Assembly: GCF_003570885.1 (NCBI RefSeq)
Contig: NZ_QXJC01000003.1
Location: 248,001 to 312,000 of the forward strand
DNA length: 64,000 nt
Source of the DNA: Simplicispira hankyongi
GTDB lineage: Bacteria > Pseudomonadota > Gammaproteobacteria > Burkholderiales > Burkholderiaceae_C
Direction of reading: 5' to 3'
Shown: positions 1-49,259 of the stretch, in pieces
How positions within the stretch are numbered: the stretch's first letter is position 1
Layout: every line of letters begins with the position of its first letter
Notes under the pieces: generated by a model
Database searches by the model: none
Told to the model about the DNA's origin: nothing
The model's input: only the letters and a program-made list of their open reading frames with translations
Made by a program: the position numbers and the translations under genes

Positions 1-182
1 CCGCCCAGATCCTGGCCCAGCCAGTTGAACAACGTCTCGCGCACGCGGTCGGGCGTGGGGCGCAGGCCTTCGAGTTTTGCCACCGGCAAACGCGTGCGCT
101 TCCATTGGCCACCAATGATGCGCACTTCACCCGGCGCTGCGGCGGGCTTGGCGCGCACGGCGCCCGGTGCGGGGCGCTTCAA
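1..182 (-). CDS. rsmD: 16S rRNA (guanine966-N2)-methyltransferase RsmD, 5' end only
   Basis: Partial gene: the first 60 codons are present and the rest runs off the left edge. RsmD methylates N2 of G966 in 16S rRNA of the small ribosomal subunit using S-adenosylmethionine. The visible N-terminus carries the family opening VRIIGGQWKRTRLPV followed by LRPTPDRVRETLFNWL, which is diagnostic. No ATG is available ahead of this block. A TTG at 180-182 is the likely start, and it overlaps the TGA stop of the upstream M16 gene (179-181), suggesting translational coupling. A GTG eight codons further in is an alternative. The SAM-binding core lies outside the window. Confidence 0.85.
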   Translation of the reverse strand, partial: MKRPAPGAVRAKPAAAPGEVRIIGGQWKRTRLPVAKLEGLRPTPDRVRETLFNWLGQDLG

Positions 183-1525
183 GGCTGCGCCCCCAGCACC
201 ACGGTGACCATGCGATCGGGCTGGAGCTTGCGCGCCATGGCGGCGCGCACGTCGGCCACGGTGAGTGCGGCCACGCGGTCGGTCCAGCCGTCGAGGTAGT
301 CGAGCGGCAAGCCATTGGTGGCAATGTTCACCACGTTGCCCAGGAGCTTGCGGTTGCTGTCGATGCGCAGGGCAAAGCCGCCAATCAGGTTGTCCTTGGC
401 GGCTTTGAGCTCGGCCTCGGTGGGGCCCTCGGCGACGAAACGCTCAAGCACCGCGCGCGACACCTTGAGCGCTTCGGCCGCCTGGTCGGGGCGCGTCTGC
501 AGGCTCACGACAAAGGCGCCGGCGTTCAAGCCCGGCGCAAACTGGCTGGAGACGCTGTAGCTCAGGCCGCGCTTTTCACGCACCTGCTCCGTCAGGCGCG
601 ACGTGAAGCCCCCGCCTCCCAGAATGTGGTTGCCCACCAGCAGCGCGAGAAAATCCGGGTCGCTGCGCTTGAAGCCAGGCTGGCCGATGAGCACATAGGC
701 CTGTGCCGACTGGAAGGGAATGTTGATTTCCTCGGCCTTTGCAAGCGGCTGCACCGCCGGCACGGCAGGCAGCGCAGCGCAGGGCGCACCGCTGGGCAGG
801 TGGGCCAGCAAGGTGCCCACCAGCGTCTGCGCTTGCGGGCGCGAGACCGCGCCGACGATGGACACCTTGGCGCGGCAGGCCTGCAGGCTGCGCTCGGCAT
901 AGGCGCGCAGGTCGGCCACTTCGATCTTAGAGACGGTCTCTGCCGTCACCTGCTGGCCATAGGGATGCGTGCCATACACCGCCTTGGCAAACGCCTTGCC
1001 CGCCACGGTGCCAGGGCGGGTGTCGGATTCGCGGATCGCCGCACTCCAGCGCGAGCGTTCGCGCTGCCAGACGTCTTCAGGCCAGGCAGGCTGGCCGATC
1101 TGGCGCGAGGCAAGCTCTGCGGCGCGCGCCAGCAGGGGTGCGTCGGTCAGGGAACGCAGCGAAAAGCTGAAGGCGTCTCTATCGGCCCCGGCGCCAAACG
1201 AGGCACCGAGGTCTGCCCAGGCCTCGCCGAGCGCGTTTTCGTCAATCGCCGGGGCATCGCCCGCAGCGCGTACACCCTTGGTGACCATGTCGGCCGCAGC
1301 GCTGGCGAGGCCCGCCTGCGCCGCCGGGTCGCGCCGGCTGCCGGCGTCGAAATCGACCTGCACGTCCACCATGGGCAGCGCCGGGCTTTGCACCAGCCAG
1401 ACCTGCGCACCGCTGGGCTCGACCCAATGCTCGATCGGCAGCAAAGCCCAGGCAGATTGAGAGTAAAAAACCACTCCAGCGCTTATTGCACAAGCGCGAG
1501 CAGCTATTTTTTTAATAGCGTTCAT
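179..1525 (-). CDS. M16 family peptidase-like protein, non-catalytic partner
   Basis: Exported M16 (pitrilysin/insulinase) family subunit of 448 aa. It has the M16 fold and the C-terminal substrate-channel motif (GGGGFTSRLTEQVREKRG, near residue 310) but no HxxEH zinc motif, so it should be catalytically inert. In this family such proteins pair with an active M16 subunit, here the gene just upstream (1562-2989), 36 bp away on the same strand. The start ATG at 1525 is preferred over one at 1534 because an AGG lies 9 nt upstream of it but directly abuts the other. The N-terminus (MNAIKKIAARACAISAGVVF) is a signal peptide whose codons are a copy of the interspersed repeat described at 1463-1519. 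The substrate is unknown. Confidence 0.88.
   Translation of the reverse strand: MNAIKKIAARACAISAGVVFYSQSAWALLPIEHWVEPSGAQVWLVQSPALPMVDVQVDFDAGSRRDPAAQAGLASAAADMVTKGVRAAGDAPAIDENALGEAWADLGASFGAGADRDAFSFSLRSLTDAPLLARAAELASRQIGQPAWPEDVWQRERSRWSAAIRESDTRPGTVAGKAFAKAVYGTHPYGQQVTAETVSKIEVADLRAYAERSLQACRAKVSIVGAVSRPQAQTLVGTLLAHLPSGAPCAALPAVPAVQPLAKAEEINIPFQSAQAYVLIGQPGFKRSDPDFLALLVGNHILGGGGFTSRLTEQVREKRGLSYSVSSQFAPGLNAGAFVVSLQTRPDQAAEALKVSRAVLERFVAEGPTEAELKAAKDNLIGGFALRIDSNRKLLGNVVNIATNGLPLDYLDGWTDRVAALTVADVRAAMARKLQPDRMVTVVLGAQP
1463..1519 (-). repeat. Palindromic repeat family A, copy 1 (inside a signal-peptide coding region)
   Basis: Read on the minus strand it gives ATAGCT, 15 nt, then ATAAGCGCTGG and a T-rich tail, the family pattern. 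It lies about 42 nt after the stop of the upstream M16 gene and forms codons 3 to about 21 of the next gene. Confidence 0.75.
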
Positions 1526-1561
1526 GGAAACCATCCTGAAAATGCGGGTAGCGGCGTGGGC

Positions 1562-2989
1562 TTAGCGAATGGCGCCGCCGGCGTCGCCCGCTGGGCGCTT
1601 GCGCGTTCCGGGTGCCACCGGCTGGGGCAGCAGCGTCGCCACCGTCAGCTGGTCGTCCCCAAAGTAGCGCTGCGCCACGCTTTGCACCTCGCTGGGCTGT
1701 ACGCCGCGCAGCAGGGTCAGCAGCCGGTCTTCCGCATCGAGCGGCAGGCCTTGCACCCAGTTGCTGCCCAACTCGCTGGCCTGGTTTTGCAGCGAGTCAC
1801 GGTCGTACACGCGGCTGGCAATCCATTGGGTCTTGACGCGGGTGAGTTCCGCCTCGCTCACACCCTCCTTGGCCACGCGTGCAACCTCCGCACGCAGCGC
1901 GGCTTCGACTTGCGCGGCCGTCTTGCCAGTGGCCGGCACGCCGGAGAGGTAGAACTGCGACGGCCCCCGGCCAAACACCGAGGCACCGCTGTTGGCGCTA
2001 TCGGCTACGCGGTCCGGCCCCTGGGTAAGGCCACGCTCCAGGCGCGCTCCGTCGTAGCCCGAGAGCACGCCCGAGAGCAGCAGCAGCGCCAGCGCGTCGC
2101 GATCGTTGGCAGTGGGTTCCGTGAGGGAACGAAGCGACGGCGCCCGGTACGCGAGCGCCACATAGGCCTGGTCGGCCGGGGCCTTGACATCGATGCGCCG
2201 CATGCCCATCTGCGGCGGCTCGGCGCGCGGCTTGCGCGTGGGCACGGCCCGCGCCGGAATGGCGCCATAGGTTTTTTGCGCCAGCGCCAACACCTGCTGC
2301 GGGTCTACGTCGCCCGCGACCACCACCACGGCGTTGGCCGGCACGTACCACTTGCGGTAGAAGGCGCGGACGTCGTCGGGCGTCATGGCGTCGAGGTCGC
2401 TCATCCAGCCTATCACCGGTCGGTGGTAGGGCGAGGCGATAAAGGCCGCCGCATAGAGCTGCTCGGACAGCAGGGCCCGTGGCTGGTCTTCGGTGCGCAT
2501 GCGGCGCTCTTCCTTCACCACTTCAAGCTCGTGCCTGAATTCCTTGTCTGGCCACTGGTTGTGCGCGAAACGGTCGGATTCAAGGCGCATCACGTCTTCA
2601 AGCTTGTTCGCCGGAATCTGCTGGTAGTAGCCGGTGTAGTCGCGGCTGGTAAAGGCGTTTTCCTGCCCGCCCAGAGCCGCCACGCGGCGCGAGAACTCGC
2701 CCGGCGCCAACTTTTCGCTGCCCTTGAACATCATGTGCTCGATCACATGCGCGACGCCGCTGACGCCATCGACTTCGTCCATCGACCCCACCCGCACCCA
2801 GACCATGTGCACCGCCGTGGGCGCGCGCCGGTCGGGCTGCACGATGAGCTGCATGCCATTGGCCAGCGTGAATTGTGAGGGGGCTACTGCCTGCGCCACC
2901 GCAGGAGTGGCTTGCGTGGTGGCAGCGTGCGCGGGAAGGAAACCTGCGGCGCACAGCGCCAGGCCCAAAGCAGTGAAGATGCGTTTCAT
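1562..2989 (-). CDS. M16 family zinc metalloprotease, catalytic subunit
   Basis: Exported zinc peptidase of 475 aa. The inverted zinc-binding motif HVIEH is at residues 81-85, within the typical block GVAHVIEHMMFKG, and the downstream acidic ligand region (ENAFTSRDYTGYY) follows. Residues 1-22 form a Sec signal peptide ending in AHA. The ATG at 2989 fits this signal peptide; the frame stays open far upstream, but that stretch overlaps ftsY and has no conserved content. The start lies only 28 bp from the divergent ftsY start. It is co-transcribed with the non-catalytic M16 gene downstream, and the two probably form a heterodimer degrading peptides in the periplasm. The specific substrate cannot be inferred. 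Confidence 0.92.
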   Translation of the reverse strand: MKRIFTALGLALCAAGFLPAHAATTQATPAVAQAVAPSQFTLANGMQLIVQPDRRAPTAVHMVWVRVGSMDEVDGVSGVAHVIEHMMFKGSEKLAPGEFSRRVAALGGQENAFTSRDYTGYYQQIPANKLEDVMRLESDRFAHNQWPDKEFRHELEVVKEERRMRTEDQPRALLSEQLYAAAFIASPYHRPVIGWMSDLDAMTPDDVRAFYRKWYVPANAVVVVAGDVDPQQVLALAQKTYGAIPARAVPTRKPRAEPPQMGMRRIDVKAPADQAYVALAYRAPSLRSLTEPTANDRDALALLLLSGVLSGYDGARLERGLTQGPDRVADSANSGASVFGRGPSQFYLSGVPATGKTAAQVEAALRAEVARVAKEGVSEAELTRVKTQWIASRVYDRDSLQNQASELGSNWVQGLPLDAEDRLLTLLRGVQPSEVQSVAQRYFGDDQLTVATLLPQPVAPGTRKRPAGDAGGAIR

Positions 2990-3017
2990 AGAATGGCTGA
3001 TTCTAAGAAGCGGCGAA

Positions 3018-4472
3018 ATGTTCAGTTTTTTCAAGAAAAAGCCGGTCCCCCCGGCCACTACCGCCGAAGCCCCCAAGCTTGCGGCGACACCCAATGCCGC
3101 TGTGGACGCTGCGCAGGTCGCGGCGTCTGACCCAGGCCCGGAAGCGCGCGCGAGCGATTCTGTGCCAGTGGCAGCGCCACACGTTGCGGCGGACAGGCCC
3201 ATGGCAACCGATGCAACCGACGCTGCCGAGGCGCAACCCCGGCCGCCAGAGGCGCCTCCCGCCCTGCCCGGCAAAGACAAGGACGAGGCCCCCGCACCGG
3301 CTGGCCCTCGCGGCTGGCTGCGCAATCCGTTTGCCCGCCCGCCCGCTGTGCCCGCGCCCGCGCCTGCACCCGAAGAACCAACTCCTGGCTTCGCGCCTGC
3401 CCCTGAACAGGCCCCGGCGGTTGCAGCACCCGCCTTCGCGCCCGAAGCGACGACCGGTCTATTCGCCGAAAGTGCAATCCCCCACATTACGGCCATTACG
3501 GCCGCCCAAACGCCTGAATCGCCCCATGCCGCGCCCCCGGCCTCCGCTCCCCGGATGGGTTGGATGGACAGGTTGCGCGGCGGCCTGCGCAAAACCAGTG
3601 CCAGCATCGCCACCGTCTTTACGGGAACCCGCATCGACGAGGCGCTGTACGAGGAGCTCGAAGAAGCCCTGCTGATGGCCGATACCGGCGTCAAGGCAAC
3701 CGAGCGCCTGCTGACCGACCTCAAGCGCCGGGTGAAGGACACCCGCACCACCGACCCCGCCGCCGTCAAAGGGCTGCTGGTCGATGCGCTCACCGAACTG
3801 CTGCGCCCGCTGGAGAAACCCCTGGTCATTGGCGAATTCACGCCGACGGTCATCATGGTGGCAGGCGTCAACGGCGCGGGCAAGACGACCTCCATCGGCA
3901 AGCTCACGCGCCATCTGGCGCAGGCCGGCGCCAGCGTGCTGCTGGCGGCAGCCGACACCTTCCGCGCGGCAGCGCGCGAGCAGCTCGGCGTCTGGGCCGA
4001 CCGCAACACGGTGGAAATCATCAGCCAGGAAGGCGGCGACCCCGCCGCCGTGAGCTACGACGCCGTCACCGCCGGCCGCGCGCGCCGCAAGGATGTGGTG
4101 CTGATCGACACGGCCGGGCGCCTACCCACCCAGTTGCACCTGATGGAAGAGCTGCGCAAGATCAAGCGCACCATCGTCAAGGCGGGCAACGCACCGGGCG
4201 CCGCGGGAATGGGCCAGCCACCGCACGAGGTGCTGCTGGTGATTGACGGCAACACCGGCCAGAACGCGCTGGCCCAGGTGCGCGCGTTCGACGACGCGCT
4301 GCAGCTGACCGGCCTCATCGTCACCAAGCTCGACGGCACCGCCAAGGGCGGCGTGCTGGCGGCGATCGCGCAGGAGCGCCCGCTGCCGGTGTACTTTATC
4401 GGCGTAGGCGAGAAGCTCGAAGACCTGGAGACCTTCAGCGCGCGCGAGTTTGCGCTGGCACTGCTGACCTGA
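3018..4472 (+). CDS. ftsY: Signal recognition particle receptor FtsY
   Basis: SRP receptor GTPase (484 aa) that docks ribosome-SRP complexes at the inner membrane for co-translational insertion. Residues 1 to about 185 form a long, low-complexity Ala/Pro/Glu-rich A domain, opening with the membrane-binding stretch MFSFFKKKP. The NG domain follows: G1 GVNGAGKTT near residue 283, ADTFRAAAREQL, DTAGRLPTQLHLMEELRK near 364, and TKLDGTAKGG near 436. The ATG at 3018 gives the canonical MFSFFKKK start; upstream extension would run into the divergent M16 gene. It is divergent from the M16 pair and convergent with cutA. Confidence 0.97.
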   Translation: MFSFFKKKPVPPATTAEAPKLAATPNAAVDAAQVAASDPGPEARASDSVPVAAPHVAADRPMATDATDAAEAQPRPPEAPPALPGKDKDEAPAPAGPRGWLRNPFARPPAVPAPAPAPEEPTPGFAPAPEQAPAVAAPAFAPEATTGLFAESAIPHITAITAAQTPESPHAAPPASAPRMGWMDRLRGGLRKTSASIATVFTGTRIDEALYEELEEALLMADTGVKATERLLTDLKRRVKDTRTTDPAAVKGLLVDALTELLRPLEKPLVIGEFTPTVIMVAGVNGAGKTTSIGKLTRHLAQAGASVLLAAADTFRAAAREQLGVWADRNTVEIISQEGGDPAAVSYDAVTAGRARRKDVVLIDTAGRLPTQLHLMEELRKIKRTIVKAGNAPGAAGMGQPPHEVLLVIDGNTGQNALAQVRAFDDALQLTGLIVTKLDGTAKGGVLAAIAQERPLPVYFIGVGEKLEDLETFSAREFALALLT

Positions 4473-4499
4473 AGGCCCAGGAGGCCCAGCAGGCCCAGG
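4473..4499. repeat. Three tandem 9-bp units between ftsY and cutA
   Basis: AGGCCCAGG, AGGCCCAGC, AGGCCCAGG follow each other directly after the ftsY stop codon, with a degenerate AAGCC remnant after them. This is a tiny minisatellite in the convergent gap, and its copy number is likely to vary between strains. Confidence 0.7.
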
Positions 4500-4505
4500 A
4501 AGCCT

Positions 4506-4838
4506 CTACGCAGCAACCTCCCGCCGCACCCAGTCTGCATATTCCACCGTAGCCAGCAGCCTCTGCACCACCAGTTCGGGCAAGTCGTACGGGTGCAGGG
4601 CGCGCAGCAAACCCAGCAGTTGCGGCACTGCTGCCGGCAGCGTCTTGCACACCAGCCGGTGCTCGCCTTCTTCCCGCAGCACGCCCGCCCAGCGGTAGTG
4701 CGAAACCACGGCCTCCACCTGCACGCAAGCAGCCAGGCGCTGCGCCAGTACCGCCTGCGCCAATCGCCGAGCGTCTTCGGCGCTGGCGACGGTGGTGGTC
4801 ACGGCACACAACTCGGCTGTGGCGTCGATCGGGTTCAT
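4506..4838 (-). CDS. cutA: Divalent cation tolerance protein CutA
   Basis: Small cytosolic trimeric protein (110 aa) of the CutA1 family, historically linked to copper tolerance, with a PII-like fold. Family features seen are an early strand with VTTTVASAEDARRLAQAVL, the conserved AACVQ segment, a YRWAG block (aromatic plus Trp) and the C-terminal HPYDLPE...YADWV segment. Length is normal. The gene is convergent with ftsY, their stop codons separated by only 33 bp holding the 9-bp tandem repeat. No partner gene is next to it, and the in vivo role of CutA remains unclear. Confidence 0.93.
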   Translation of the reverse strand: MNPIDATAELCAVTTTVASAEDARRLAQAVLAQRLAACVQVEAVVSHYRWAGVLREEGEHRLVCKTLPAAVPQLLGLLRALHPYDLPELVVQRLLATVEYADWVRREVAA

Positions 4839-4906
4839 TCCAGGCTCTTTGTGCGGGCCGAGGCTGACACCGCAAGGCCAGTGATTCGGGTGGGCGACAC
4901 TATCGT

Positions 4907-4955
4907 ATTTATAGCTATCATCGCAATACCATCAAGCGGAAGGCTGTATTTTTAA
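4907..4955 (+). repeat. Palindromic repeat family A, copy 2 (degenerate)
   Basis: ATAGCT, 14 nt, ATCAAGCGG then AGGCTGTATTTTTA resembles the family pattern with several mismatches. This is the only copy not placed just after a stop codon; it lies between the cutA start and the rpoH operator. Confidence 0.4.
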
Positions 4956-5006
4956 CATAATTCCAACTATCGGTTTTGTCCCACACCAATTTGGGGAACT
5001 TGGCGG

Positions 5007-5036
5007 TTAGCAGTCCCTCCAAGAGAGTGCTAATAT
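5007..5036 (+). promoter_or_regulatory. CIRCE (HrcA operator) with overlapping rpoH promoter
   Basis: TTAGCAGTC, nine bases, GAGTGCTAA matches the CIRCE consensus (TTAGCACTC-N9-GAGTGCTAA) at 17 of 18 arm positions; the single mismatch is in the left arm. The operator occupies 5007-5033. TTAGCA and TAATAT (5031-5036), 18 bp apart, could serve as -35 and -10 elements, so HrcA binding would block polymerase. The predicted transcript start near 5043 supports the downstream rpoH ATG. Confidence 0.88.
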
Positions 5037-5063
5037 TTATCCATGGACGAAAGGAATTCTCAA

Positions 5064-5999
5064 ATGAAACTCCCCTCTGGATCCGCAACAACCGCGCTGG
5101 CCCCGGCCAACCCGTGGGCGCTGGTGCCGCCACTGGGGAATCTGGACGCCTACATTTCCGCCACCAACCGTCTGCCGTTGCTGACGCTCGAAGAGGAGCA
5201 GGCCGCTGCGCGTAGCCTGCGCGAGAACAACGACCTGGACGCCGCGGGTCGGTTGGTGTTGTCGCACCTGCGTCTGGTGGTGTCTATCTCGCGCCAGTAC
5301 CTGGGCTATGGCCTGCCGCACGGCGACCTGATCCAGGAAGGCAACGTGGGGCTGATGAAAGCCGTGAAACGCTTCGACCCCGACCAGGGCGTGCGCCTGG
5401 TGAGCTACGCCATGCACTGGATCAAAGCCGAAATTCATGAGTACATCCTGAAGAACTGGCGCATGGTCAAGGTGGCGACCACCAAGGCGCAGCGCAAGTT
5501 GTTCTTCAATCTGCGCTCGATGAAGCAAGGTTTCAAGGCCGACGCAGAAGACGCCGACACGCACCGCAATACCTTGTCGGAGCGCGAGATCGACCAGATG
5601 GCGTCGCAGCTGAACGTGAAACGCGAAGAGGTGATGGAGATGGAAACCCGCATGTCGGGCGGCGACGTGCTGCTCGACCCGGCGCCATCGGACGATAGTG
5701 AGCAGGCTTTCGGCCCGATCGCCTACCTGGCGGACGCCGCGCACGAGCCCACCGCCATGATCGAATCGCGCCAGCGCGACGCCCTGGCAAGCGATGGCAT
5801 TGCCACTGCGCTGATTGGTCTGGACGAGCGCAGCCGGCGCATCGTAGAAGAGCGCTGGCTGAATGTGAACGACGACGGCTCAGGCGGCATGACACTGCAC
5901 GAACTGGCGGCCGAATACGGCGTCAGCGCCGAGCGCATTCGCCAGATTGAAGTCGCAGCCATGAAGAAAATGAAGAAAAGCCTGGCCGAGTACGCCTGA
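5064..5999 (+). CDS. rpoH: RNA polymerase heat-shock sigma factor RpoH (sigma-32)
   Basis: Alternative sigma factor of 311 aa directing transcription of chaperone and protease genes. Region 2 contains GDLIQEGNVGLMKAVKRFD and VSYAMHWIKAEIHEYI. The RpoH box QRKLFFNLR is at residues 143-151, and the C-terminal region 4 helix-turn-helix is LHELAAEYGVSAERIRQIE. The ATG at 5064 is chosen because AAAGGA (5050-5055) lies 8 nt upstream; an in-frame ATG at 5043 would begin at about the predicted transcription start. A CIRCE element lies 31 bp upstream, so transcription should be repressed by HrcA, linking the two heat-shock systems. A strong terminator follows the gene. Confidence 0.96.
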   Translation: MKLPSGSATTALAPANPWALVPPLGNLDAYISATNRLPLLTLEEEQAAARSLRENNDLDAAGRLVLSHLRLVVSISRQYLGYGLPHGDLIQEGNVGLMKAVKRFDPDQGVRLVSYAMHWIKAEIHEYILKNWRMVKVATTKAQRKLFFNLRSMKQGFKADAEDADTHRNTLSEREIDQMASQLNVKREEVMEMETRMSGGDVLLDPAPSDDSEQAFGPIAYLADAAHEPTAMIESRQRDALASDGIATALIGLDERSRRIVEERWLNVNDDGSGGMTLHELAAEYGVSAERIRQIEVAAMKKMKKSLAEYA

Positions 6000-6020
6000 G
6001 CCCATTCGACTTGGGTCAGA

Positions 6021-6054
6021 AGGCGCGCAACCCTCACCGGTTGCGCGCCTTTTT
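6021..6054 (+). terminator. Rho-independent terminator of rpoH
   Basis: A perfect 12-bp stem (AGGCGCGCAACC / GGTTGCGCGCCT) with a 6-nt loop is followed by a T run, 21 bp after the rpoH stop. Confidence 0.93.
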
Positions 6055-6073
6055 CATGTGGTGGGGGCTTTTG

Positions 6074-6307
6074 ATGTCTGCATGCCCTTCGCGCCGCGCC
6101 GCGCTCACCTCTGGCGCGGGAGCTCTGCTCGCGGCCGTACTGCCCCTGGCCCGCGCTGCGGACGCCAGCACCGCACCGCACCGCACTGGGCTGGCCGAGC
6201 CGCACGCTCAAGCAAGCTGTTCCAGCAAAACTGGCAGGTCGCCGGCACCACCGCCGAAGGTCTGGCACGGCGCGTGCAGGCGGATGCTTAGTTGCTCGGC
6301 AACGTGA
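6074..6307 (+). pseudogene. Decayed ORF with a Tat-like signal sequence
   Basis: The 353-bp gap between rpoH and the Lrp gene holds only this. From the ATG at 6074 the first about 30 codons read like a short twin-arginine export signal (RRAALTSGAGALLAAVLPLA then ARAAD). The rest of that frame (77 aa) is low complexity. A more protein-like segment (LFQQNWQVAGTTAEGLARR) lies in a different forward frame at about 6215-6290 and is closed by TAG, with readable codons continuing after it. This pattern suggests a frameshifted remnant of an exported protein. I do not recognise the parent family, and it may equally be non-coding. Confidence 0.35.
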
Positions 6308-6352
6308 TTCGTACGCGCCATACCACCGCCCAATAGCCGCTCGTCGCGGCCT

Positions 6353-6820
6353 TTAGCGGTCCATCGGTAAAACCTGACTTTCCTTTACCTCCTCCATCAC
6401 CACGTAGCTGTGGGACTGGGCCGTGACGGGGAGCTTTTTCAGCATATCGCCGAGCAGATGGCGGTACTCGTTCATGCCGCCGAGCCGGGCCTTGACAAGG
6501 TAGTCAAAGCTGCCGGACACCAGGTGGCATTCCATCACTTCGGGCAGGTGCAAGAGCTCTTGGCGCACCTTGTCGAACACGTCACCCGATTTGGACGACA
6601 GCGTGATTTCCACAAACACCAGCAGCGTTTTGCCGAGCGCGGCGGGGTCCACGCGGGCGTGGTAGCCGGTGATGACCTTGTCGCGCTCCATGCGCCGAAC
6701 CCGCTCGGAACACGGCGACGTAGACAGGCCGATCTGCTCGGCCAGATCGGTCATGGAAATGCGCCCCTGGCGCTGGAGGATGTCGAGGATTTTCCGGTCA
6801 ATGCGATCGAGTTCGGCCAT
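6353..6820 (-). CDS. lrp: Lrp/AsnC family transcriptional regulator
   Basis: DNA-binding regulator of 155 aa. The N-terminal winged helix-turn-helix starts MAELDRIDRKILDILQRQGR, with recognition-helix residues LSTSPCSERVRRMER. The C-terminal RAM ligand-binding domain (about residues 60-150) contains VMECHLVSGSFDYLVKARL and Y-H-LLGDMLKKLP, typical for amino-acid sensing Lrp proteins. It is divergent from dadA with 130 bp between the starts, so it most likely controls D-amino acid catabolism in response to alanine or leucine, as DadR does in pseudomonads. The effector is an inference. An inverted repeat at 6894-6916 is a candidate operator. Confidence 0.92.
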   Translation of the reverse strand: MAELDRIDRKILDILQRQGRISMTDLAEQIGLSTSPCSERVRRMERDKVITGYHARVDPAALGKTLLVFVEITLSSKSGDVFDKVRQELLHLPEVMECHLVSGSFDYLVKARLGGMNEYRHLLGDMLKKLPVTAQSHSYVVMEEVKESQVLPMDR

Positions 6821-6893
6821 TTGAAGCGTCCGGCAACAAAACAGCCCTCTATTTCAGCCGAAATTCTGGCCAATGGCACATTTTTAAGTGAAA

Positions 6894-6916
6894 TTTATGG
6901 CGCTGCCATCCATAAA
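6894..6916. promoter_or_regulatory. Inverted repeat in the lrp-dadA divergent promoter region
   Basis: TTTATGG, nine bases, CCATAAA: perfect 7-bp arms in an AT-rich stretch just upstream of a TATAAAT (6922-6928) that may be the dadA -10 box. Its position and symmetry fit an Lrp-family operator, but the motif has not been tested. Confidence 0.4.
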
Positions 6917-6950
6917 CTTCCTATAAATCTTGTTGATTTTGGAGTGCGCG

Positions 6951-8252
6951 ATGAAAGTCATAGTTCTCGGTGGCGGCGTGATCGGTACCACGACTGCGTA
7001 TTACCTGGCCCGTTCGGGCGCCGAGGTGGTGGTGCTCGACCGCCAGAGCAGCGTGGCGCAAGAAACCAGCTTCGCCAACGCTGGCCAGGTTTCGCCTGGC
7101 TATTCCACGCCTTGGGCTGCGCCCGGCATTCCGTTCAAGGCGATGAAGTGGATGTTTCAGAAGCACGCGCCACTGTCCATCCGCCCAGACGGCAGCCTGT
7201 TCCAGCTGCGCTGGATGGCCGCCATGCTGAAAAACTGCTCCGCCGATCGTTACGGGATCAACAAGGAACGCATGATGCGCGTCGCCGAGTACAGCCGCAC
7301 GTGCCTGCGCCAGTTGCGTGCGGATACCGGCATTGCCTACGAGCACCGCAGCCAGGGCACGCTGCAGCTCTTTCGCACGCAGGCCCAACTCGATGCCGTG
7401 CAGCGCGACGTGGCTGTGCTGAAGGAATGCGGCGTGCCGTACGAATTGCTGGACCGCGACCAGCTCACCACCGTTGAGCCTGCATTGGCACAGGCACGCG
7501 AGCGCCTGACCGGTGGGCTTCGCCTGCCCAATGACGAGACAGGCGACTGCCACATGTTCACGCAGGCGCTGGCCAAACTGGCGCGCGGCCTGGGAGTCGA
7601 TTTCCGCTTCGATCAAACGGTCGAGGGGCTGGTCACCGAAGGCAATCGCATCACCGGCGTGCGGGTGGGCGGCGAAGTGCTCACGGCCGACCGCTACGTG
7701 CTGGCCTTTGGCAGCTATTCACGCGGCTTCTTGGAGCCACTGGGGCTCAAGCTGCCGGTGTACCCGGTGAAGGGCTATTCGCTGACGGTTCCATTGCTGA
7801 ACCCCGAACTGGCGCCGCAGTCCACCGTACTGGACGAGACCTACAAGGTCGCGGTTACGCGCTTCGACAACCGCATCCGCGTCGGCGGAATGGCGGAGCT
7901 GGCGGGCTTTGACCTCTCGCTCAACCCGCGCCGGCGCGCCACGCTGGAGATGGTGGTGAGCGACCTGTTCCCCGGCGGCGACTTGCCCAAAGCCGAATTC
8001 TGGACGGGTCTTCGGCCCATGACCCCCGACAGCACCCCGATTGTCGGCGCCACGCCGTATTCCAACCTGCTGCTCAATACCGGGCACGGAACCCTTGGAT
8101 GGACCATGGCCTGCGGCTCGGGCAAGCTGGTGGCCGACCTGGCCATGGACCACACGCCGGAAATTCGTACCGACGGCCTGGGTCTGTCGCGCTACCTGCC
8201 CTCGGCCCGTGCCCGCTCAGCGCACGCGCACTCGGCCGGCGCTGCGGCTTGA
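6951..8252 (+). CDS. dadA: D-amino acid dehydrogenase (FAD, small subunit type)
   Basis: Membrane-associated flavoenzyme (433 aa) that oxidatively deaminates D-alanine and related D-amino acids to 2-oxo acids, passing electrons to the respiratory chain. The N-terminus [18 protein letters not shown] is the GxGxxG Rossmann FAD site, followed by VVVLDR and the DadA-type [22 protein letters not shown] block. Near the C-terminus, [15 protein letters not shown] and [16 protein letters not shown] close the flavin site. The ATG at 6951 has GGAG (6941-6944) at proper spacing. It is divergent from the Lrp regulator, which probably activates it. No alanine racemase gene (dadX) follows, unlike in the enterobacterial operon. 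Confidence 0.95.
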
Positions 8253-8362
8253 AGCGCCCGAGCGCGGCGGATTTCACTTCAAGGCCGAGGCACTGAGCGC
8301 CGGTGCACACGCGCTGTGGCGCTCTCCCGTTGGGTGCAGCGAAGAAGCGCGAAGCACCTCCT

Positions 8363-9646
8363 TCAATCCCTGACGAACACCGTCATCTCAACACCCTCTG
8401 TCGCCTCATAGGCCAGCATCCGCTCGATCAGCTTGGCGCTGAGCACCTGTTCGCTCCCTAGAAGCAACACACCTCCCGTGCGCATGAACTCCCGTGCCAG
8501 GACCATGCCCGGCTTCAGTTCCGACAGCCTGCATTCGCGCTGGCGCACTGGGGGCTTGGGCGGCGCTGCCAGCACGGCTGTCAAGGCATCAAGCACCTGG
8601 GGATCGTACCGCTTGCCACGGTCCTTCTCCAACGTCTGGCGCGCCTCCTCAGGCGTGAAGTGCAAGGCTGAAAACGTTCCAATTTGGAGACTGTCGTAGT
8701 CATTGGCTACCGCCAGCAGGCGTGCACCCAGCGGAATATCGTGCCCCGTCAGGCTGTCCGGAAACCCCAGGCCATCGAAACGCTCGTGGTGGTGGCGCAC
8801 CAGCTTGGAGACTGCCGCAAGTTCGTCCAGCGCCATCAAGGCGTTCTCCCCGTCCTGCGGGTGCTTGCGGTAGACATCCAGGTCCTCCGGACCCATGGTC
8901 CGTACCGGGCGGGTTAGCAACGCGTCGTTGAAGCCGATCTTTCCAATGTCGTGCAGCATGCCTGCCACGAACACGTTCTGCACCCCCATGTTATTCATGC
9001 CCATGCGGATGGCCATGGAGCGGGCCAGGGCTGCCACCCGGCGCGAGTGGCCAGCCAATATCGGATGCCGCATCTCCATCAGCGTAGAGTAAATTTTTAC
9101 CGCCGTAAGAAAACTCTGCTTGACCCTTTCATTCGCCTTCTGCAGATCGGCCGTCCTCTCCTGTACCTTGGCCTCCAGAGATTCGTTCAGCTGACGCAAC
9201 GCTTCGTTCTGTTCGAGCGCAAGGGCCTCCAGGCGCTCCTTCTCGCGCTCCAATGCCTTTCTCTCGAGGGCCTGCCGCACAGTAAGCGCCATGTCTTCGT
9301 CGGTCCATGGCTTGGTGATATAGCGATAAATTTCACCCTGGTTGATGGCCTCGATGGTGGAGCCGATGTCGGCATAGCCCGTGAGAAGAATGCGTACCAC
9401 ATCCGGCCACTCTTGTTTGACCACCTTGAGAAACTGAGCGCCATCCATGTGCGGCATGCGCATGTCGGAGATGACCAGATCCACCGGCTCGCTGCGCAGG
9501 ATTTCCAGCCCTTGCGCGCCGCCTTCGGCCACCAGCACCCGGTACCCACAGGGACGGAAAAGACGCCGCAGCGCTGACAGAATATTGGGCTCGTCATCGA
9601 CACACAGCAAGGTGCCAGGTATCTCTGGGCCGTTCTGCTCAGACAT
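8363..9646 (-). CDS. Response regulator with HD-GYP domain (cyclic di-GMP phosphodiesterase)
   Basis: Two-domain protein (427 aa). The REC domain (about 12-125) has the phosphoacceptor Asp61 in LVISDMRMP and the conserved Lys in YITKPW. A coiled-coil linker spans about 125-175. The HD-GYP domain (about 180-375) has HD at 232-233 in HDIGKIG and HHHERFDGLGFP at 285-296. These are the metal ligands for hydrolysing cyclic di-GMP, except that the usual GYP signature reads GFP. It is the last gene of a five-gene signalling operon; its start overlaps the 3' end of the kinase gene by 8 bp. The kinase is the obvious phosphodonor. The output is probably lowering of cyclic di-GMP, affecting motility or biofilm. 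Confidence 0.92.
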   Translation of the reverse strand: MSEQNGPEIPGTLLCVDDEPNILSALRRLFRPCGYRVLVAEGGAQGLEILRSEPVDLVISDMRMPHMDGAQFLKVVKQEWPDVVRILLTGYADIGSTIEAINQGEIYRYITKPWTDEDMALTVRQALERKALEREKERLEALALEQNEALRQLNESLEAKVQERTADLQKANERVKQSFLTAVKIYSTLMEMRHPILAGHSRRVAALARSMAIRMGMNNMGVQNVFVAGMLHDIGKIGFNDALLTRPVRTMGPEDLDVYRKHPQDGENALMALDELAAVSKLVRHHHERFDGLGFPDSLTGHDIPLGARLLAVANDYDSLQIGTFSALHFTPEEARQTLEKDRGKRYDPQVLDALTAVLAAPPKPPVRQRECRLSELKPGMVLAREFMRTGGVLLLGSEQVLSAKLIERMLAYEATEGVEMTVFVRD

Positions 9647-11813
9647 TCACCGTCCCCGCCGCGGCTGCAGGCTGAACAATGGGTAGTTCAATACGGAAAA
9701 CCGTGCCCTTGCCCACCTGGCTCTGCACCGTGATCCGGCCATGGTGCTTTTGAAGGATGCCGTAGGTGAGCGACAGCCCCAGGCCAGTTCCCTTGCCCAC
9801 CGGCTTGGTGGTAAAGAAAGGATCGAAAATCTTCTGCTGGATTTCAGGCGGCATCCCGCCACCATTGTCCGCAAACTCCAGCCAGGCGAAATCGCCCACA
9901 GTGCCCGAGCGGATGGTGATGCAGCCGCGCTCCTGGCCCATGGCATGCGCGGCATTGACCAGCAGATTCATGAACACCTGGTTGAGTTGCGACGGCAGGC
10001 ATTCAACCGGCGGCACAACCCCATACTCCTTCACCACGTCGGCCTTGTATTTAATCTCGTTGTTGACGATATTCAGCGTGGAGTCGATCCCGTGGTGCAG
10101 ATCGGCGGTCTGCCATTCCTGGCTGCTGTCCACACGGGAAAAATCCTTCAAGTCCTGGACAATCTTCTTGACACGGGTGATACCCTCCTGCGACTCGCTG
10201 ATCAGCGACGGAATGTCCTCTCGCAAAAACTCCACGTCGATTTTTCTTCGTAGTGCGTCGATGTCGGCCGTACTCGGCAACTGCTCGTAGGCCGTCAACA
10301 GTGCCATGAGATCGCCAAGATAGTTCCGCAGCGAGCCGATATTCGAGTGCACATACCCGATAGGGTTGTTGATCTCATGGGCCACCCCCGCAGCCAGCTG
10401 ACCGATGGAAGCGAGCTTTTCCGACTGCGCCAACTGCGCCTGTGCTTGTGTGAGCTGCTCGTTGAGTTTCTCTAGAGCTTCATTGTGCTGACGCAACTGC
10501 ACCTCGGCCCTGCGGCGCTCGGCATTGTCCTGAGCCAGCTGGGCGTTGGCGGAGGCCAATTGGCCCGTGCGTTCCTTCACCTGCTGCTCCAGATCATCGT
10601 GCGCCTTCTGCAGGGCAAGCTCGGAGGTTTTGAGCCGGGTTACATCCACCAGGGTTTCGATAGCGCCCACGATGCGCCCTTTACCGTCGCGCAGCGGGGA
10701 GGCCGTAAAAACAAACCACACCCCCGCCAGCCTGGCGGTCGAAAAGAACCCTTCCGCCTCCCAAGCGTCCGGTATCACCTCCGAAGGCCTGTACCTGTCC
10801 TGATAGTGCTCCCGCACCCGCGCAGCTTGCGCATCGTCCACGATCAGATCGGCCAGAACGGGGCGTGGTGCGTCATAGAACGGCTTCCACTGGTCGCGCG
10901 TACCCACCATGTCGGTTGCGGAAATAGACGTCACCTTTTCGACCGCCCGGTTCCAGTGGGTCACGACATGGTGTTCATCGATGACCATCGTGGGAACAGG
11001 ACTTCCATCGATGATTTGCGCCAGCACTTGGCGCATATGCAGTTGCAGAGCCTCGCTCTTGCGCTGCTCGTTCAGGTTGATATAGGTATCGATCAGAGTA
11101 GCCCGTCCGTCCACGGGCAACATTCCTACGGCCTGCTCCACCCAGCAACGTTGCCCGGTGGCGGATTGCAGGCAGCTCTCGAACCGGGTTTGCGTGGTCT
11201 CACCACGCAGACGTGCGGCGAGCCGCTCGCGCAGCCGCTCGCGGCTTTCGGGATGGGTCAGCTCTTCGTAGGGTAGGCCCTGCAGGGCCGCCAGGGAATA
11301 CCCGGTCAGCGACAACATCGCCTGGTTGGCATACAGAATGCTGCCTTGGCGGTGCAGCAGGACAGGCGTGGCCAACCCCTCCAGCATGGAATAAAAGCTA
11401 TCCTGGACATCAGCCACCAGCGGCGGAAAATCCTGCTGCCGTGCCGCAGAGGTGGCCAAGATCAACACCCTATCGATCTGGCCAGCGTCGTCTTTGAGCG
11501 GCACCATGGTGGCTTGGACCAGCAAGGACTGTCCATCGGCCTTGCGCAGCGAAAGTTTGCCCAGCCAGCAGCGGCAATGCGCCAGAAATCCCAGGACATC
11601 CGACGGATTGAATCCCTGACCGCTCTCGGGAACGATGGTGGCGAGTTGCTGCCCTTGCAGCGCTTGCTGAGCATGGCCAAGCGCCCGGGCCAAGTGGGTA
11701 TTGACCATCACCAGATACCCGTTGCGGTGTACCACCGCCAGCATGAACCCCTCCATCAGGGCAGGAAAAAGGCCGCTCAGTGCGACGTCGTGGGGGGGTG
11801 GCAATGGGGTCAT
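9639..11813 (-). CDS. Multi-PAS sensor histidine kinase
   Basis: Histidine kinase of 724 aa without obvious membrane segments, so probably a cytosolic sensor. Three PAS-like modules lie at about 20-120, 140-250 and 265-395, followed by a coiled coil (about 400-465). The HisKA H-box is [12 protein letters not shown] with His479. The ATPase domain contains the N-box [16 protein letters not shown], the G1 box DNGGGM, the F-box [10 protein letters not shown] and the G2 box [13 protein letters not shown]. The H-box INNP form belongs to the kinases related to the NtrB/DctB class. It sits between the HDOD gene (19 bp upstream) and the HD-GYP regulator (8-bp overlap), so both are likely partners. The ligand of the PAS domains is unknown. 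Confidence 0.93.
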
Positions 11814-11832
11814 GGCGGTAAGGGAAAGCGCT

Positions 11833-12720
11833 TTAGTGCATCAATTGCTGGCACGCAATCTGGTAACGCTCTTCAATTTCCGACAGCAGCTTGTTGCTGC
11901 CAGACCAGTCCAGTTGCAGTCCATCCCAGGCGACTACCTGAATATCGGGCACCTGGTCCTGCGGCTCCTGCAGCAGGTCAAGCGCATGGGCCAGCGCATG
12001 GGACACATGGACCAGCCAGACCATGGCATCGGCCTCCGGATGATCGCACTGGTGGTGCAGCGCCATGCAGCGGCGCAGCATGGCGGGAAGCTGCCACTGC
12101 CGCGCCAACTGCTCGCCCACTTGACAATGATCAAACCCCCACACGGTGCGTTCCGCTTCTAGTAGGCGGTACGCCACCGAGGCAGATGACCCGTCCGAAT
12201 CCGCTTCTGCCAAGGATTGCCATACAAGTTCCTGCACCTGCCGGTATCGCTCCGGGTCAATGGCCAGCATCACCAGCCGCCCCAGATCACTCAGCAGACC
12301 AGCGGTGAAAGCCGCATCCACTGCCAGCCGGGCCCTGCGCGCCAGGGCCTGGGTGCACACGGCGACGGCAACACTGTGGCGCCAGTGGGCCTGATAGGCA
12401 GACTGCAGGGCAGGAATGCTGGTCTTGAACTGCTCCATCACGGCTGCGGCCAGCGCCATCGCTTGCAGGCTGCGCAGTCCCACCAACGAGACGGCATGGG
12501 CAATCGATTCCACCTGATGGGCCAGGCCAAAAAACGGTGAATTCGCCACCCGCAGCGTACGAGCAGCGATCACGGGATCGCTTTCTATCAGCTCTGTCAG
12601 TGTCGCAATCTCAGGGCTTTCCTGGGCCAGACACTGCAACATGCGCGTCCGTATGGGCGACATGGTCACCAACTTGCCTATGCGCAAGGCGAGCTCATCC
12701 TGCCCCATTGGCTTGCTCAT
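11833..12720 (-). CDS. HDOD domain protein
   Basis: Protein of 295 aa made mainly of an HDOD domain (about 15-210), a degenerate HD-type fold that lacks the full metal-binding site and acts in signalling rather than catalysis. Typical features are the opening segment with IESDPVIAARTLRVANSPFF, then SIAHAVSLVGLRSL and HSVAVAVCTQALARRA. HDOD proteins in other bacteria often work beside histidine kinases and cyclic di-GMP enzymes. Its ATG overlaps the stop of the 63-aa ORF upstream by 4 bp (ATGA), showing translational coupling. It probably relays or scaffolds signals between the REC-PAS protein and the kinase; this is inference from context. Confidence 0.9.
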   Translation of the reverse strand: MSKPMGQDELALRIGKLVTMSPIRTRMLQCLAQESPEIATLTELIESDPVIAARTLRVANSPFFGLAHQVESIAHAVSLVGLRSLQAMALAAAVMEQFKTSIPALQSAYQAHWRHSVAVAVCTQALARRARLAVDAAFTAGLLSDLGRLVMLAIDPERYRQVQELVWQSLAEADSDGSSASVAYRLLEAERTVWGFDHCQVGEQLARQWQLPAMLRRCMALHHQCDHPEADAMVWLVHVSHALAHALDLLQEPQDQVPDIQVVAWDGLQLDWSGSNKLLSEIEERYQIACQQLMH

Positions 12721-12908
12721 GATGGCACCTTGAGACGGTAGCGCTGCACGATCTCGCGCAGTTGCTCCATGGGATAGGTGGGCGCCGTTCCTCGAAAGAG
12801 CCAGTCAACTCGCTGCGCTATCACCGCAGGATCCGATGCAGCACAAGCTGGCGGAGGACTGCGCGTTGCAGCAACAGGGCTGCTGTGGGCTACGTCTTTC
12901 GGGATCAT
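12717..12908 (-). CDS. Small translationally coupled ORF (63 aa) in the signalling operon
   Basis: Unrecognised 63-aa protein. Its ATG overlaps the stop of the upstream REC-PAS gene (ATGA, 12905-12908) and its stop overlaps the start of the HDOD gene (ATGA, 12717-12720). That double 4-bp coupling is the main evidence that it is a real gene. The N-terminal half is Pro/Ala/Ser-rich and probably disordered. The C-terminal half (about 30-60, with VIAQRVDWLFRG and MEQLREIVQRYRLKV) looks like two amphipathic helices. There is no signal peptide or membrane segment. It could be an adaptor between neighbouring proteins, but this cannot be shown from the sequence. Confidence 0.7.
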   Translation of the reverse strand: MIPKDVAHSSPVAATRSPPPACAASDPAVIAQRVDWLFRGTAPTYPMEQLREIVQRYRLKVPS

Positions 12909-13714
12909 GGCGCGGCTCCTACAGGAATAAAAGTCAGCAGTCCACCTTGCCCCAGCGAGCCACGGCCCACGCGGGTGTAACACACCGTCCAGTCGGGCAT
13001 GTACAAGGTCTGACTGGCTTCTTCCCTGACAGCAGGAAAATCACTGAAGAGTTGCGCCAATCCGGCCACCTCCTGTAGCGCAACACCGGGAACTGCCCCG
13101 GCAAAGAAGCGCTGCGATGCAGCATTGATCAGTACCAGCATACCGCTGTCGTCGACACCCATCACCGGAATGGCCACAGCATCAAAGATTTCATGCGAAA
13201 CGCCGATGGCAACCTCATCCTGCAGCAGACGGCGCTGTTGCTGGCGCACCATACCTGCCAATTGGGCATGCGCCTGTACCAGCGATGCATGGGCACTTTC
13301 CAGCTCATCATGCAGGCGCTGGTTCTCGTCCTCCAGCGACTTCTGGCGAAAGGCCTCGGCGATGTTGGCACGCAGGTGTTCATCGTCCCAAGGCTTGGTC
13401 ATGAATTTGTAGACCGCCCCCTCATTGATGGCATCGGTGACCGATTGCAGCTCGGTATACCCTGAAAGCACCATCCGGATGGTTTTTGGGTAGCGCCTGC
13501 GGGCCTCACGCAGAAACTCAACCCCGGTCATGCCCGGCATGCGCTGGTCGGACACAATCACATCCACAGGTGTCTCTGCGAGCACCTCAAGCCCCTCCTT
13601 CCCTCCGCTGGCAGTCAGTAACTGGTATCCGTCTCGACGGAGCACGCGCTTGAGGGCCGTGAGTATGAATGCCTCATCGTCCACAAGCAGCAGGGTCTGG
13701 GATGCTTGTTCCAT
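12905..13714 (-). CDS. Response regulator with PAS-like domain
   Basis: First gene of the signalling operon (269 aa). The REC domain (about 6-125) has the acidic pair in LLVDDEAF, phosphoacceptor Asp56 in VIVSDQRMP, and Lys in KFMTKPWDD. A coiled coil (about 130-165) leads to a PAS-like domain (about 170-265; IFDAVAIPVMGVDDSGML...NAASQRFFAG). There is no DNA-binding or enzymatic output domain, so it probably signals by protein contact. ATG codons at 13765, 13726 and 13714 are all possible. The last is chosen because it places the REC domain at the usual distance from the N-terminus, but none has a clear ribosome site. The stop overlaps the next ORF by 4 bp. Confidence 0.88.
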   Translation of the reverse strand: MEQASQTLLLVDDEAFILTALKRVLRRDGYQLLTASGGKEGLEVLAETPVDVIVSDQRMPGMTGVEFLREARRRYPKTIRMVLSGYTELQSVTDAINEGAVYKFMTKPWDDEHLRANIAEAFRQKSLEDENQRLHDELESAHASLVQAHAQLAGMVRQQQRRLLQDEVAIGVSHEIFDAVAIPVMGVDDSGMLVLINAASQRFFAGAVPGVALQEVAGLAQLFSDFPAVREEASQTLYMPDWTVCYTRVGRGSLGQGGLLTFIPVGAAP

Positions 13715-13800
13715 GATGAAACCCATGCTATCGGCATTTGCCCAATAGGGGAACTGGCACCCCATCCCACCCGTGCAGATATTGACATTTGTCGAGTGGC

Positions 13801-14412
13801 TTACGTTGCTTCCTTGAGCAAACTGCGCACGTCCGCCGCTACGGCGTCCGGGCCACTGCCATACCGGCTGTAAATGCGCAGGCGCCCTGCCGGATCGAAA
13901 AGGTAGCTGCCCGCCGAATGGTCCATGGTGTAGCTCGTCGGCGTCTGACCATCAACCTTCTTGTAGTAGATCTTGAATTCCTTGGCGATGGCCGCCGTTT
14001 GCGCGTCACTGCCGCGCAGTGCTATAAAGCTCGGGTCAAAATTGGCCATGTAGGCCTTGAGCAGTTCCGGCGTGTCACGCGCCGGGTCGATGGTGACAAA
14101 CACTGCCTGGAGCTTGTCGCCATCCGCACCCAGCGACTGCTTGACCTGGGCGAGTTCCTGCAGGGTCGTTGGGCAGACATCCGGGCACTGGGTGTAGCCA
14201 AAGAACACCACCACCACCTTGCCGGCGAAATCCTTGAGACTGCGCATCTGACCATTCTGATCCGGCAAGGCAAAGTCGCGCGCATAGTCGGCACCGGTGA
14301 TGTCCACACCGCGAAACTCGGGTGCGCTCTTGGAGCAAGCAGAAAAAAGCCCACCAGCGCTTATGCTGATTGCGCTTAAAGCTATCATTCGGAGAGCAGT
14401 TCTTCGGAGCAT
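13801..14412 (-). CDS. SCO1/SenC copper chaperone for cytochrome c oxidase
   Basis: Membrane-anchored copper chaperone (203 aa) that delivers copper to the CuA site of oxidase subunit II. The thioredoxin-like domain carries the copper ligands CPDVC (Cys76, Cys80) and the distal His165 in MDHSAG. The N-terminus is a lipoprotein signal (GGLFSAC, lipid-modified Cys26). It is the last gene after ctaA-ctaB, starting 6 bp past the ctaB stop. Codons about 9-26 of the signal peptide coincide with a copy of the interspersed palindromic repeat (14334-14389), in the same frame as in the M16 gene at 179-1525. Confidence 0.94.
   Translation of the reverse strand: MLRRTALRMIALSAISISAGGLFSACSKSAPEFRGVDITGADYARDFALPDQNGQMRSLKDFAGKVVVVFFGYTQCPDVCPTTLQELAQVKQSLGADGDKLQAVFVTIDPARDTPELLKAYMANFDPSFIALRGSDAQTAAIAKEFKIYYKKVDGQTPTSYTMDHSAGSYLFDPAGRLRIYSRYGSGPDAVAADVRSLLKEAT
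14334..14389 (-). repeat. Palindromic repeat family A, copy 3 (inside the SCO1 signal peptide)
   Basis: On the minus strand: ATAGCT, 15 nt, ATAAGCGCTGG, then a CTTTTTTC tail. It begins 29 nt after the ctaB stop codon and encodes the hydrophobic core of the SCO1 lipoprotein signal. Confidence 0.7.
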
Positions 14413-27646: not shown

Positions 27647-27660
27647 GGCAGAGTCCTCAA

Positions 27661-27724
27661 ATAATACAAAATAGGCCTTTTACGCTTTACCTATAAGGGT
27701 ATAAAGCTATCATTTTGATAAAAA
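27661..27724 (-). repeat. Palindromic repeat family A, copy 4
   Basis: On the minus strand ATAGCT, 15 nt, TAAAGCGTAAA then AGGCCTATTTTG. It begins directly after the LysE stop codon (27725), in the same orientation as that gene, and lies before parA. Confidence 0.7.
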
Positions 27725-34699: not shown

Positions 34700-34708
34700 C
34701 CTTAAAAC

Positions 34709-46192: not shown

Positions 46193-46193
46193 T

Positions 46194-49220: not shown

Positions 49221-49259
49221 ACTGCGCCGGCATAGGCCGGCGTGAAGGCTCCCGCAAAA

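Follow-up and report, generated by a model that had tools for sequence, protein, structure and literature searches.

We find that a short palindromic repeat of the Comamonadaceae, a bacterial family found in soil and water, has very probably been turned into Sec-type signal peptides at several unrelated genes for exported proteins. At the genes for an M16-like peptidase, SCO1 and a PF03886 lipoprotein this most likely predates the genus, and where the repeat was lost the gene copies and the intergenic copies appear to have been lost in parallel. The analysis shows that the starts of these genes resemble the repeat beyond what codon choice accounts for, and it documents their reading frame, their distribution across genomes and the correlated loss.

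The repeat is about 66 nt long, has a conserved stem and is mostly intergenic; four of the best copies in the window, by which we mean the whole 64,000-nt stretch of Simplicispira hankyongi DNA analysed here, sit between genes (Table 1). A pattern search gave 426 matches genome-wide and a single one in the control. The genome figure is inflated because some near-perfect copies match on both strands (at the fetched loci, 158–161 matches represent about 135 copies), and it corresponds to about 350 copies. Among the 120 genomes compared, the repeat is confined to the Comamonadaceae, the family to which Acidovorax and Polaromonas belong. Rfam covariance models run over the whole window at the gathering threshold detected two tRNAs only, and the repeat matched no family. 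A REP element mobilised by a RAYT was considered and rejected, since the presence of PF01797 does not follow that of the repeat: PF01797 is present in the repeat-free genomes G002, G007, G041 and G043 and was not found in the repeat-rich G003 and G010 (the latter 67% complete).

Table 1. Repeat copies and associated genes in the window; strands of intergenic and divergent copies are given in the signal-peptide sense.
Feature	Position	Strand	Basis or remark
Repeat copy, n- and h-region of the predicted M16-like signal peptide (AIKKIAARACAISAGVVFYSQS)	1454..1519	-	nhmmer, synonymous null
M16-like peptidase gene (PF05193, PF00675)	179..1534	-	ATG at 1525 is the start conserved among relatives
Second M16 gene, adjacent, ordinary signal peptide, control	1562..2989	-	
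Decayed repeat copy forming the predicted SCO1 signal peptide (ALRMIALSAISISAGGLFSACS)	14332..14397	-	synonymous null, orthologues
SCO1/SenC gene (PF02630), lipoprotein-type signal	13801..14412	-	
Intergenic repeat copy	30363..30428	-	
Intergenic repeat copy	46128..46193	-	
Intergenic repeat copy	49258..49323	-	
Intergenic repeat copy	51112..51177	-	
Repeat copy, more divergent	34643..34708	+	
Repeat copy, more divergent	27657..27722	-	

The initial annotation had proposed that the M16-like and SCO1 signal peptides both derive from this one repeat, and the scores from the window and from orthologues, set against a synonymous-codon null of 300 uniform draws for each gene, confirm it. An nhmmer model built from four intergenic copies, with the M16 copy left out, recovers the M16 copy in the window with an E-value of 3.8e-11. 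Its repeat score is 60.4 against a null maximum of 30.7, and 25 of 30 orthologous M16 loci score above all 300 draws, each of these in frame 0. The SCO1 copy is near chance in the window alone, its nhmmer E-values (about 1 for the same orientation, 0.23 for the palindromic strand that overlaps it) not being significant, but it is clear in the orthologues, where it reaches up to 39.1 bits and the repeat score rises to 44.1. The SCO1 copy in the window scores 12.1 (null maximum 4.9), and 23 of 30 SCO1 loci exceed every draw, again each in frame 0.

On the signal-peptide strand, frame 0 is open over the 66 nt in 64 of 112 copies, frame 1 in none and frame 2 in 5, in a set that excludes loci fetched with the signal-peptide profile. 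As had been claimed for the consensus, this main open frame is hydrophobic, reading about AIELIAASAYGISARGQF. The M16 and SCO1 copies lie on the same strand, in the same frame and in almost identical register, with the repeat core starting 6 nt past the A of the start codon in M16 ('MNAIKK') and 15 nt past it in SCO1. The shared reading frame is real, but the agreement is largely due to frame 0 being the main open hydrophobic frame of the element.

In 23 of 30 loci the PF03886 lipoprotein gene (Pfam) has the core in frame 0 at nt +6, with a score of -11 in one case, and the 7 loci without the repeat are all from genomes with 0 to 2 R1 matches. Like M16 and SCO1, this gene carries the repeat genus-wide and into other genera. 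Four more exported-type genes in this genome have repeat-derived starts, one of them weakly: DUF1775, Peripla_BP_6, the GspD secretin and TPM_phosphatase, the last using the hydrophobic frame of the repeat's opposite strand. The repeat score was above all synonymous draws in 7 of the 7 further genes checked. Among the 158 matches examined (about 135 copies, 30 loci having been fetched with the signal-peptide profile), those inside an N-terminal coding region gave seven genes judged exported (M16, SCO1, PF03886, DUF1775, Peripla_BP_6, GspD and TPM) and one, DUF1289, that has a repeat-derived N-terminus and is not known to be exported; this is a description and not an enrichment statistic. In residue pattern, the repeat-derived starts show Lys/Arg in the n-region, a hydrophobic core and an AWA cleavage or lipobox-like end, and judging from sequence these peptides probably work in export.

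Across genomes, the repeat score at the gene start correlates with the number of repeats in the genome, with rho of 0.88 for M16 (n=49), 0.85 for SCO1 (n=50) and 0.79 for PF03886 (n=30), values that are uncorrected for kinship. Where a genome has at least 20 matches the score is above 0 in 28/29 M16, 24/30 SCO1 and 22/23 PF03886 loci, against 1/13, 0/13 and 0/7 where it has fewer than 5. The repeat-poor genomes G002 and G005 (together), G043, G069 and G041 adjoin repeat-bearing sisters in the M16 tree. Some repeat-bearing genomes lack the repeat at a gene start, namely at SCO1 in G027 (-63) and G034 (-18) and at both genes in G045 (M16 -34, SCO1 -83) and G028 (M16 -13, SCO1 -15). Genomes of the family without the repeat have different DNA at these gene starts, and in other families all 20 loci (10 M16, 10 SCO1) have other signal peptides without a repeat score; distant orthologues thus do not show the same signal peptide in the absence of the repeat. 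These differences support the proposal that the repeat supplied the secretion-signal sequence. As in a MITE/RU-type repeat exapted into coding sequence, the in-frame fusion is kept in orthologues and element-free relatives differ there, and the transfer probably ran from repeat to gene.

Copies landing just past a start codon very probably became Sec-type signal peptides in two steps of codon change: GAA turned into AAA, which made the n-region positive, and the core lost its AGA (Arg) codon, mostly to GGA in M16 and by other changes elsewhere. The cleavage site, or partly the lipobox, probably comes from the host gene. The same change very probably occurred at several unrelated exported-protein genes, with the M16, SCO1 and PF03886 events older than the genus, and lineages that lost the repeat genome-wide no longer have its sequence in their gene copies. 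The initial annotation had the element dropped between adjacent genes; the repeat origin of the signals holds, but the events are old and not recent insertions, since the M16 copy is shared with further genera such as Rhodoferax and Comamonas.

In pairs chosen by genome class, independently of repeat score, codon identity is 0.853 in the repeat region and 0.619 in the gene body for M16, 0.773 and 0.632 for SCO1, and 0.811 and 0.615 for PF03886. Of 74 sequences from repeat-rich genomes, 69 encode Ile-Ala at one place in the repeat and 68 have ATAGCT there, although in gene bodies ATA makes up no more than 2.6% of Ile codons and GCT no more than 6.4% of Ala codons. The gene copies are thus probably kept at the nucleotide level beyond the needs of the protein alone. 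Both this excess of codon identity and the parallel loss of gene and intergenic copies would fit an element with a DNA or RNA function of its own, for example as a binding or processing site, its gene copies being kept for both roles, which we regard as possible but doubtful. The four GCGC stem pairs, formed in 87–100% of gene copies, point the same way, though they also encode conserved residues. Against this, orthologous copies elsewhere in the region share just 39 to 56 of their 66 nt with those of G011/G017 (four sites), which slightly exceeds the match of the flanks at two sites and falls below it at the other two, and our search for a trans factor, with PF01797 as the candidate checked, found none. 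The constraint ratio at consensus positions of intergenic copies was 0.65, in pairs that included genomes without the repeat. Tentatively, the repeat could be a nucleotide element recognised by some Comamonadaceae factor, and its gene-start copies could serve as element and signal peptide at once. If so, the genes for exported proteins would be coupled to the element, and loss of the system would lead to decay of intergenic copies and signal-peptide codon choice alike.

Continuing gene conversion, with the numerous intergenic copies as donors, could also maintain the repeat sequence in genes, and it would agree with the joint loss of both, but we consider it unlikely, and reject it as the sole cause, given mixed evidence. 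The copies in SCO1 and the lipoprotein gene resemble each other slightly more within genomes than between them (0.675 vs 0.640, p 0.0018), whereas M16 and SCO1 show no such excess (p 0.41) and M16 and lipoprotein give p 0.067. At position 39 of the core (index 38), agreement with the GGGCT subfamily is seen for the lipoprotein copy in G010 and G020 and for the M16 copy in G027 and G060, with Fisher p values of 0.025 for lipoprotein, 0.053 for M16 and 1 for SCO1; yet the GGGCT-rich clade keeps GCGCT in M16 (G008, G010, G020) and SCO1 (G006, G008, G010), where selection against the resulting Arg could mask conversion. The lost AGA codon, moreover, has not been restored. Convergence, by which any hydrophobic signal peptide with AT-rich start-proximal codons would resemble the repeat, is highly improbable: part of the protein likeness is indeed generic, because repeat-free relatives (e.g. 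SCO1 of L064) can have broadly similar signal-peptide residues, and third-position GC is 0.76 in signal peptides of non-repeat genes vs 0.80–0.87 in their bodies, but it is 0.30–0.31 in repeat-type copies, the synonymous nulls are exceeded, the control signal peptide of the neighbouring second M16 gene has a codon identity of 0.539, below its body (0.627), and three unrelated genes have ATAGCT in the same position.

The repeat itself appears to have been seen before as paired motifs, one from Acidovorax ebreus (GCTTAT(N)5AAGCG) and one from Polaromonas naphthalenivorans (ATAGCT(N)22CAAAAG), with 114 and 125 mostly intergenic copies (PMC5217627). The former fits our consensus exactly; the CAAAAG half of the latter misfits it, so that the Polaromonas motif counts as no more than a likely relative. 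The section listing these motifs gives them as potentially novel, states no function and does not mention signal peptides. Our literature search, with subscription journals mostly outside its coverage, returned no report tying this repeat to signal peptides, and we found no earlier account in which such use of a repeat is recurrent and ancient and its codons are preserved.

Signal peptides derived from a repeat are, however, already known as a kind: in Yersinia YPO1552 the signal peptide is formed in part by the enterobacterial RU-2/YAPL repeat, with a weaker prediction for a second gene, YPO2495 (Delihas, 2007; PMC2759123). Common to both cases, as far as that account goes, are a short palindromic intergenic repeat, its in-frame fusion at a gene start and unrelated signal peptides in relatives without it. 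Rickettsia palindromic elements occur as in-frame insertions in numerous unrelated genes, in a modification of gene products described in general terms (PMC10969869), whereas the present copies form predicted N-terminal export signals. The RU-2/YAPL account stresses one small gene; here several unrelated conserved genes are involved across genera, and export signals may thus arise repeatedly from one ready-made repeat, in conserved genes and not in orphan ORFs. With the natural series of present, decayed and absent copies, one can trace how signal peptides are born and lost. Also unlike RU-2/YAPL, the copies described here use mostly one frame, near one register, and retain rare repeat codons, which raises the testable question of what keeps the repeat.

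The repeat, mainly intergenic, has a palindromic core of about 66 nt with the consensus GCTATTGAATTGATAGCTGCTAGCGCTTATGGGATAAGCGCTAGAGGCCAATTTTACTTAAAATTT. In the Simplicispira hankyongi genome (G000; 3.71 Mb in 19 contigs, window G000:C13:248001-312000) a pattern of about 20 fixed bases, with up to three mismatches allowed, gave 205 + 221 matches, and the reversed pattern, used as a control, gave 1. Owing to the palindromic core, certain copies are counted on each strand; the 161 pattern matches at the fetched loci come from 135 distinct copies, which by proportion corresponds to about 350 copies genome-wide. A covariance model of the repeat, R1, located at least 150 places, all with an E-value of 3.5e-7 or better, and R1 matches were found in 43 of 120 genomes, our own included, every one within the family Comamonadaceae. 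Copies also lie immediately 5′ of the start codon in four genes with seemingly cytosolic or membrane products, one of them a NUDIX gene by Pfam (L197) and three which we take to be UbiD-like, AcpS-like and acyltransferase-like (L127, L137, L156), and some copies are therefore located in 5′ leaders.

The initial annotation proposed that the signal peptides of the M16-like peptidase and SCO1 are copies of this one repeat. From the window alone half of this is statistically firm, as a profile from four intergenic copies recovers the M16 copy with an E-value of 3.8e-11 whereas the SCO1 copy, at only about 1, is close to chance. Orthologues support both halves: when gene-start DNA was compared at 30 M16 and 30 SCO1 loci, the best of those from 120 genomes, likeness to the repeat (the repeat score) exceeded all 300 uniform synonymous recodings at 25 and 23 loci, respectively. 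The loci that failed belong to repeat-poor genomes, as classed by R1 matches (M16 of G002, G005 and G043; SCO1 of G002, G005, G007, G043 and G069), and to repeat-bearing ones (M16 of G006 and G045; SCO1 of G028 and G012). Among named loci, the nearest come from records assigned to Burkholderiaceae or Burkholderiales, Giesbergeria, Simplicispira, Acidovorax and other Comamonadaceae. The repeat is present in M16 of Acidovorax temperans (score 24.1), Comamonas testosteroni (29.5) and Rhodoferax sp. OV413 (54.4), and absent from that of Delftia acidovorans (-54.5), Paracidovorax cattleyae (-65.3), Comamonas koreensis (-57.4) and Giesbergeria anulus (-52.2). The same signal peptide without any repeat was not seen in distant genera, no repeat score above -40 being found at 10 M16 and 10 SCO1 loci from other families. 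An origin of the signal-peptide sequences from the repeat is well supported.

The shared reading frame also holds, both copies being in frame 0, but it is largely set by the element itself. With loci recovered by the signal-peptide profile set aside, 112 copies remained; on the signal-peptide strand 64, 0 and 5 of these are open across 66 nt in frames 0, 1 and 2, respectively, compared with 37, 22 and 4 on the opposite strand. In copies open across the central 45 nt, plus frame 0 has a mean hydropathy of 0.78 and minus frame 1 one of 1.00, and no remaining frame exceeds 0.09.

Our own genome was searched with a profile of both signal peptides, and further long frames were named by Pfam. This search, of a kind that the initial annotation had proposed as a check, recovered other genes matching the profile (first four further genes in the table, and also DUF1289).

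Genes carrying the repeat, and the second M16 gene used as a control
Gene	Location	Strand	Repeat copy or remark	Basis
M16-like peptidase	window 179-1534	minus	copy 1454-1519	
SCO1	window 13801-14412	minus	copy 14332-14397	
Second M16 gene	window 1562-2989	minus	ordinary signal peptide	
ABC_trans_aux lipoprotein (PF03886)	L103			Pfam
DUF1775	L102			Pfam
Peripla_BP_6	L104		weak copy, score 19.5	Pfam
GspD-type secretin	L159			Pfam
DUF1289	L125:1498-1770		N-terminus apparently repeat-encoded peptide	Pfam
TPM_phosphatase	L105:678-1586	minus	N-terminus MPLALIRYTLAAIFLIAFSPLSGWAQA; opposite repeat strand, its hydrophobic frame 1	
NMT1-type binding protein	G048		repeat copy	

All seven further genes had a repeat score above all 300 synonymous draws. 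Export is not known for the DUF1289 family. In the lipoprotein gene 23 of 30 loci have the core in frame 0, exactly 6 nt downstream of the aligned start (scores -11 to 69); the loci without it (G005, G041, G002, G007, G033, G031, G026) are from genomes with 0-2 R1 matches each. The initial annotation is thereby confirmed, in a case that extends further and dates back longer than it described.

In these genes the repeat is preserved at the codon level. Codon identity was scored at identical residues in pairs below 80% protein identity, with genomes chosen by R1 count and not by signal-peptide score. For M16, SCO1 and lipoprotein in repeat-rich genomes it was 0.853, 0.773 and 0.811 in the signal peptide and 0.619, 0.632 and 0.615 in the gene body, where full randomisation of codons would give 0.54-0.56; signal peptides of repeat-poor genomes gave 0.500, 0.355 and 0.306 (few sites: 14, 31 and 36). 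ATAGCT stands at one common place in 24/26 M16, 25/25 SCO1 and 19/23 lipoprotein sequences, although both codons are rare in the bodies of these genes, ATA contributing no more than 2.6% for Ile and GCT no more than 6.4% for Ala. Between our own genome and G011 and G017, the M16 copy is identical at 64/66 and 63/66 positions and its flanks at 101/120 and 97/120. For four further copies that have a counterpart in those genomes, identity is 39-56 of 66 positions; the flanks fall slightly below the copy at two sites and exceed it at the other two. Three copies had no match in the compared stretches.

Presence in the genes follows abundance in the genome. R1 count and repeat score correlate among in-family genomes (rho 0.88 for M16, n=49; 0.85 for SCO1, n=50; 0.79 for lipoprotein, n=30), where rho ignores kinship, R1 was trained on our own genome and the top count in the 120-genome survey stands for at least 37 matches per genome. 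Scores above 0 were found in 28/29 (M16), 24/30 (SCO1) and 22/23 (lipoprotein) genomes with at least 20 R1 matches, and in 1/13, 0/13 and 0/7 of those with fewer than 5. Exceptions are G027 (25 matches, yet SCO1 without the repeat), G028 (23, both M16 and SCO1 negative), G034 (20, SCO1 negative) and G045 (10, repeat absent from both); the SCO1 score is slightly negative in G001, G009 and G012. In the M16 tree the repeat-poor G002+G005, G043, G069 and G041 each adjoin sisters that carry it, suggesting that the repeat was lost several times. G002, G005 and G007, of the same genus, nearly lack the repeat (0, 2 and 0 R1 matches) and are suited to seeking a lost trans factor.

The repeat codons may be maintained by gene conversion or by a function of the element. 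Ongoing conversion from other copies has mixed support: copies within a genome resemble each other for SCO1/lipoprotein (p 0.0018) and marginally for M16/lipoprotein (p 0.067), but not for M16/SCO1 (p 0.41). A clade of four genomes (G006, G008, G010, G020) is dominated by a GGGCT subfamily, with 60, 137, 43 and 100 matches to that pattern against 18, 14, 5 and 1 to the GCGCT pattern, which is the less loose of the two (own genome: 0 and 112); this suggests genome-wide turnover. The lipoprotein copy is GGGCT in G010 and G020, but GCGCT is kept in M16 of G008, G010 and G020 and in SCO1 of G006, G008 and G010, and the G form also occurs in M16 of G027 and G060, both outside the clade (Fisher p: M16 0.053, SCO1 1, lipoprotein 0.025). 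As the GGGCT change would place Arg in the core, protein-level selection could mask conversion. Alternatively, the element's own function may keep the repeat codons in the genes; PF01797 showed no association with the repeat. General start-of-gene effects do not account for the preserved codons, since the ordinary signal peptide of the adjacent second M16 gene has a codon identity of 0.539 against 0.627 in the body (25 repeat-rich genomes).

The motif listing of PMC5217627 includes GCTTAT(N)5AAGCG in Acidovorax ebreus as a motif without assigned function, and a related-looking motif pair in Polaromonas is likewise listed there without one. Elements of Rickettsia are covered in PMC10969869, and a precedent for a repeat-derived signal peptide is given by Delihas (2007; PMC2759123) and a companion review (PMC2229807). 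Repeat-derived signal peptides are thus already known as a kind, and the present case is a variant of it.
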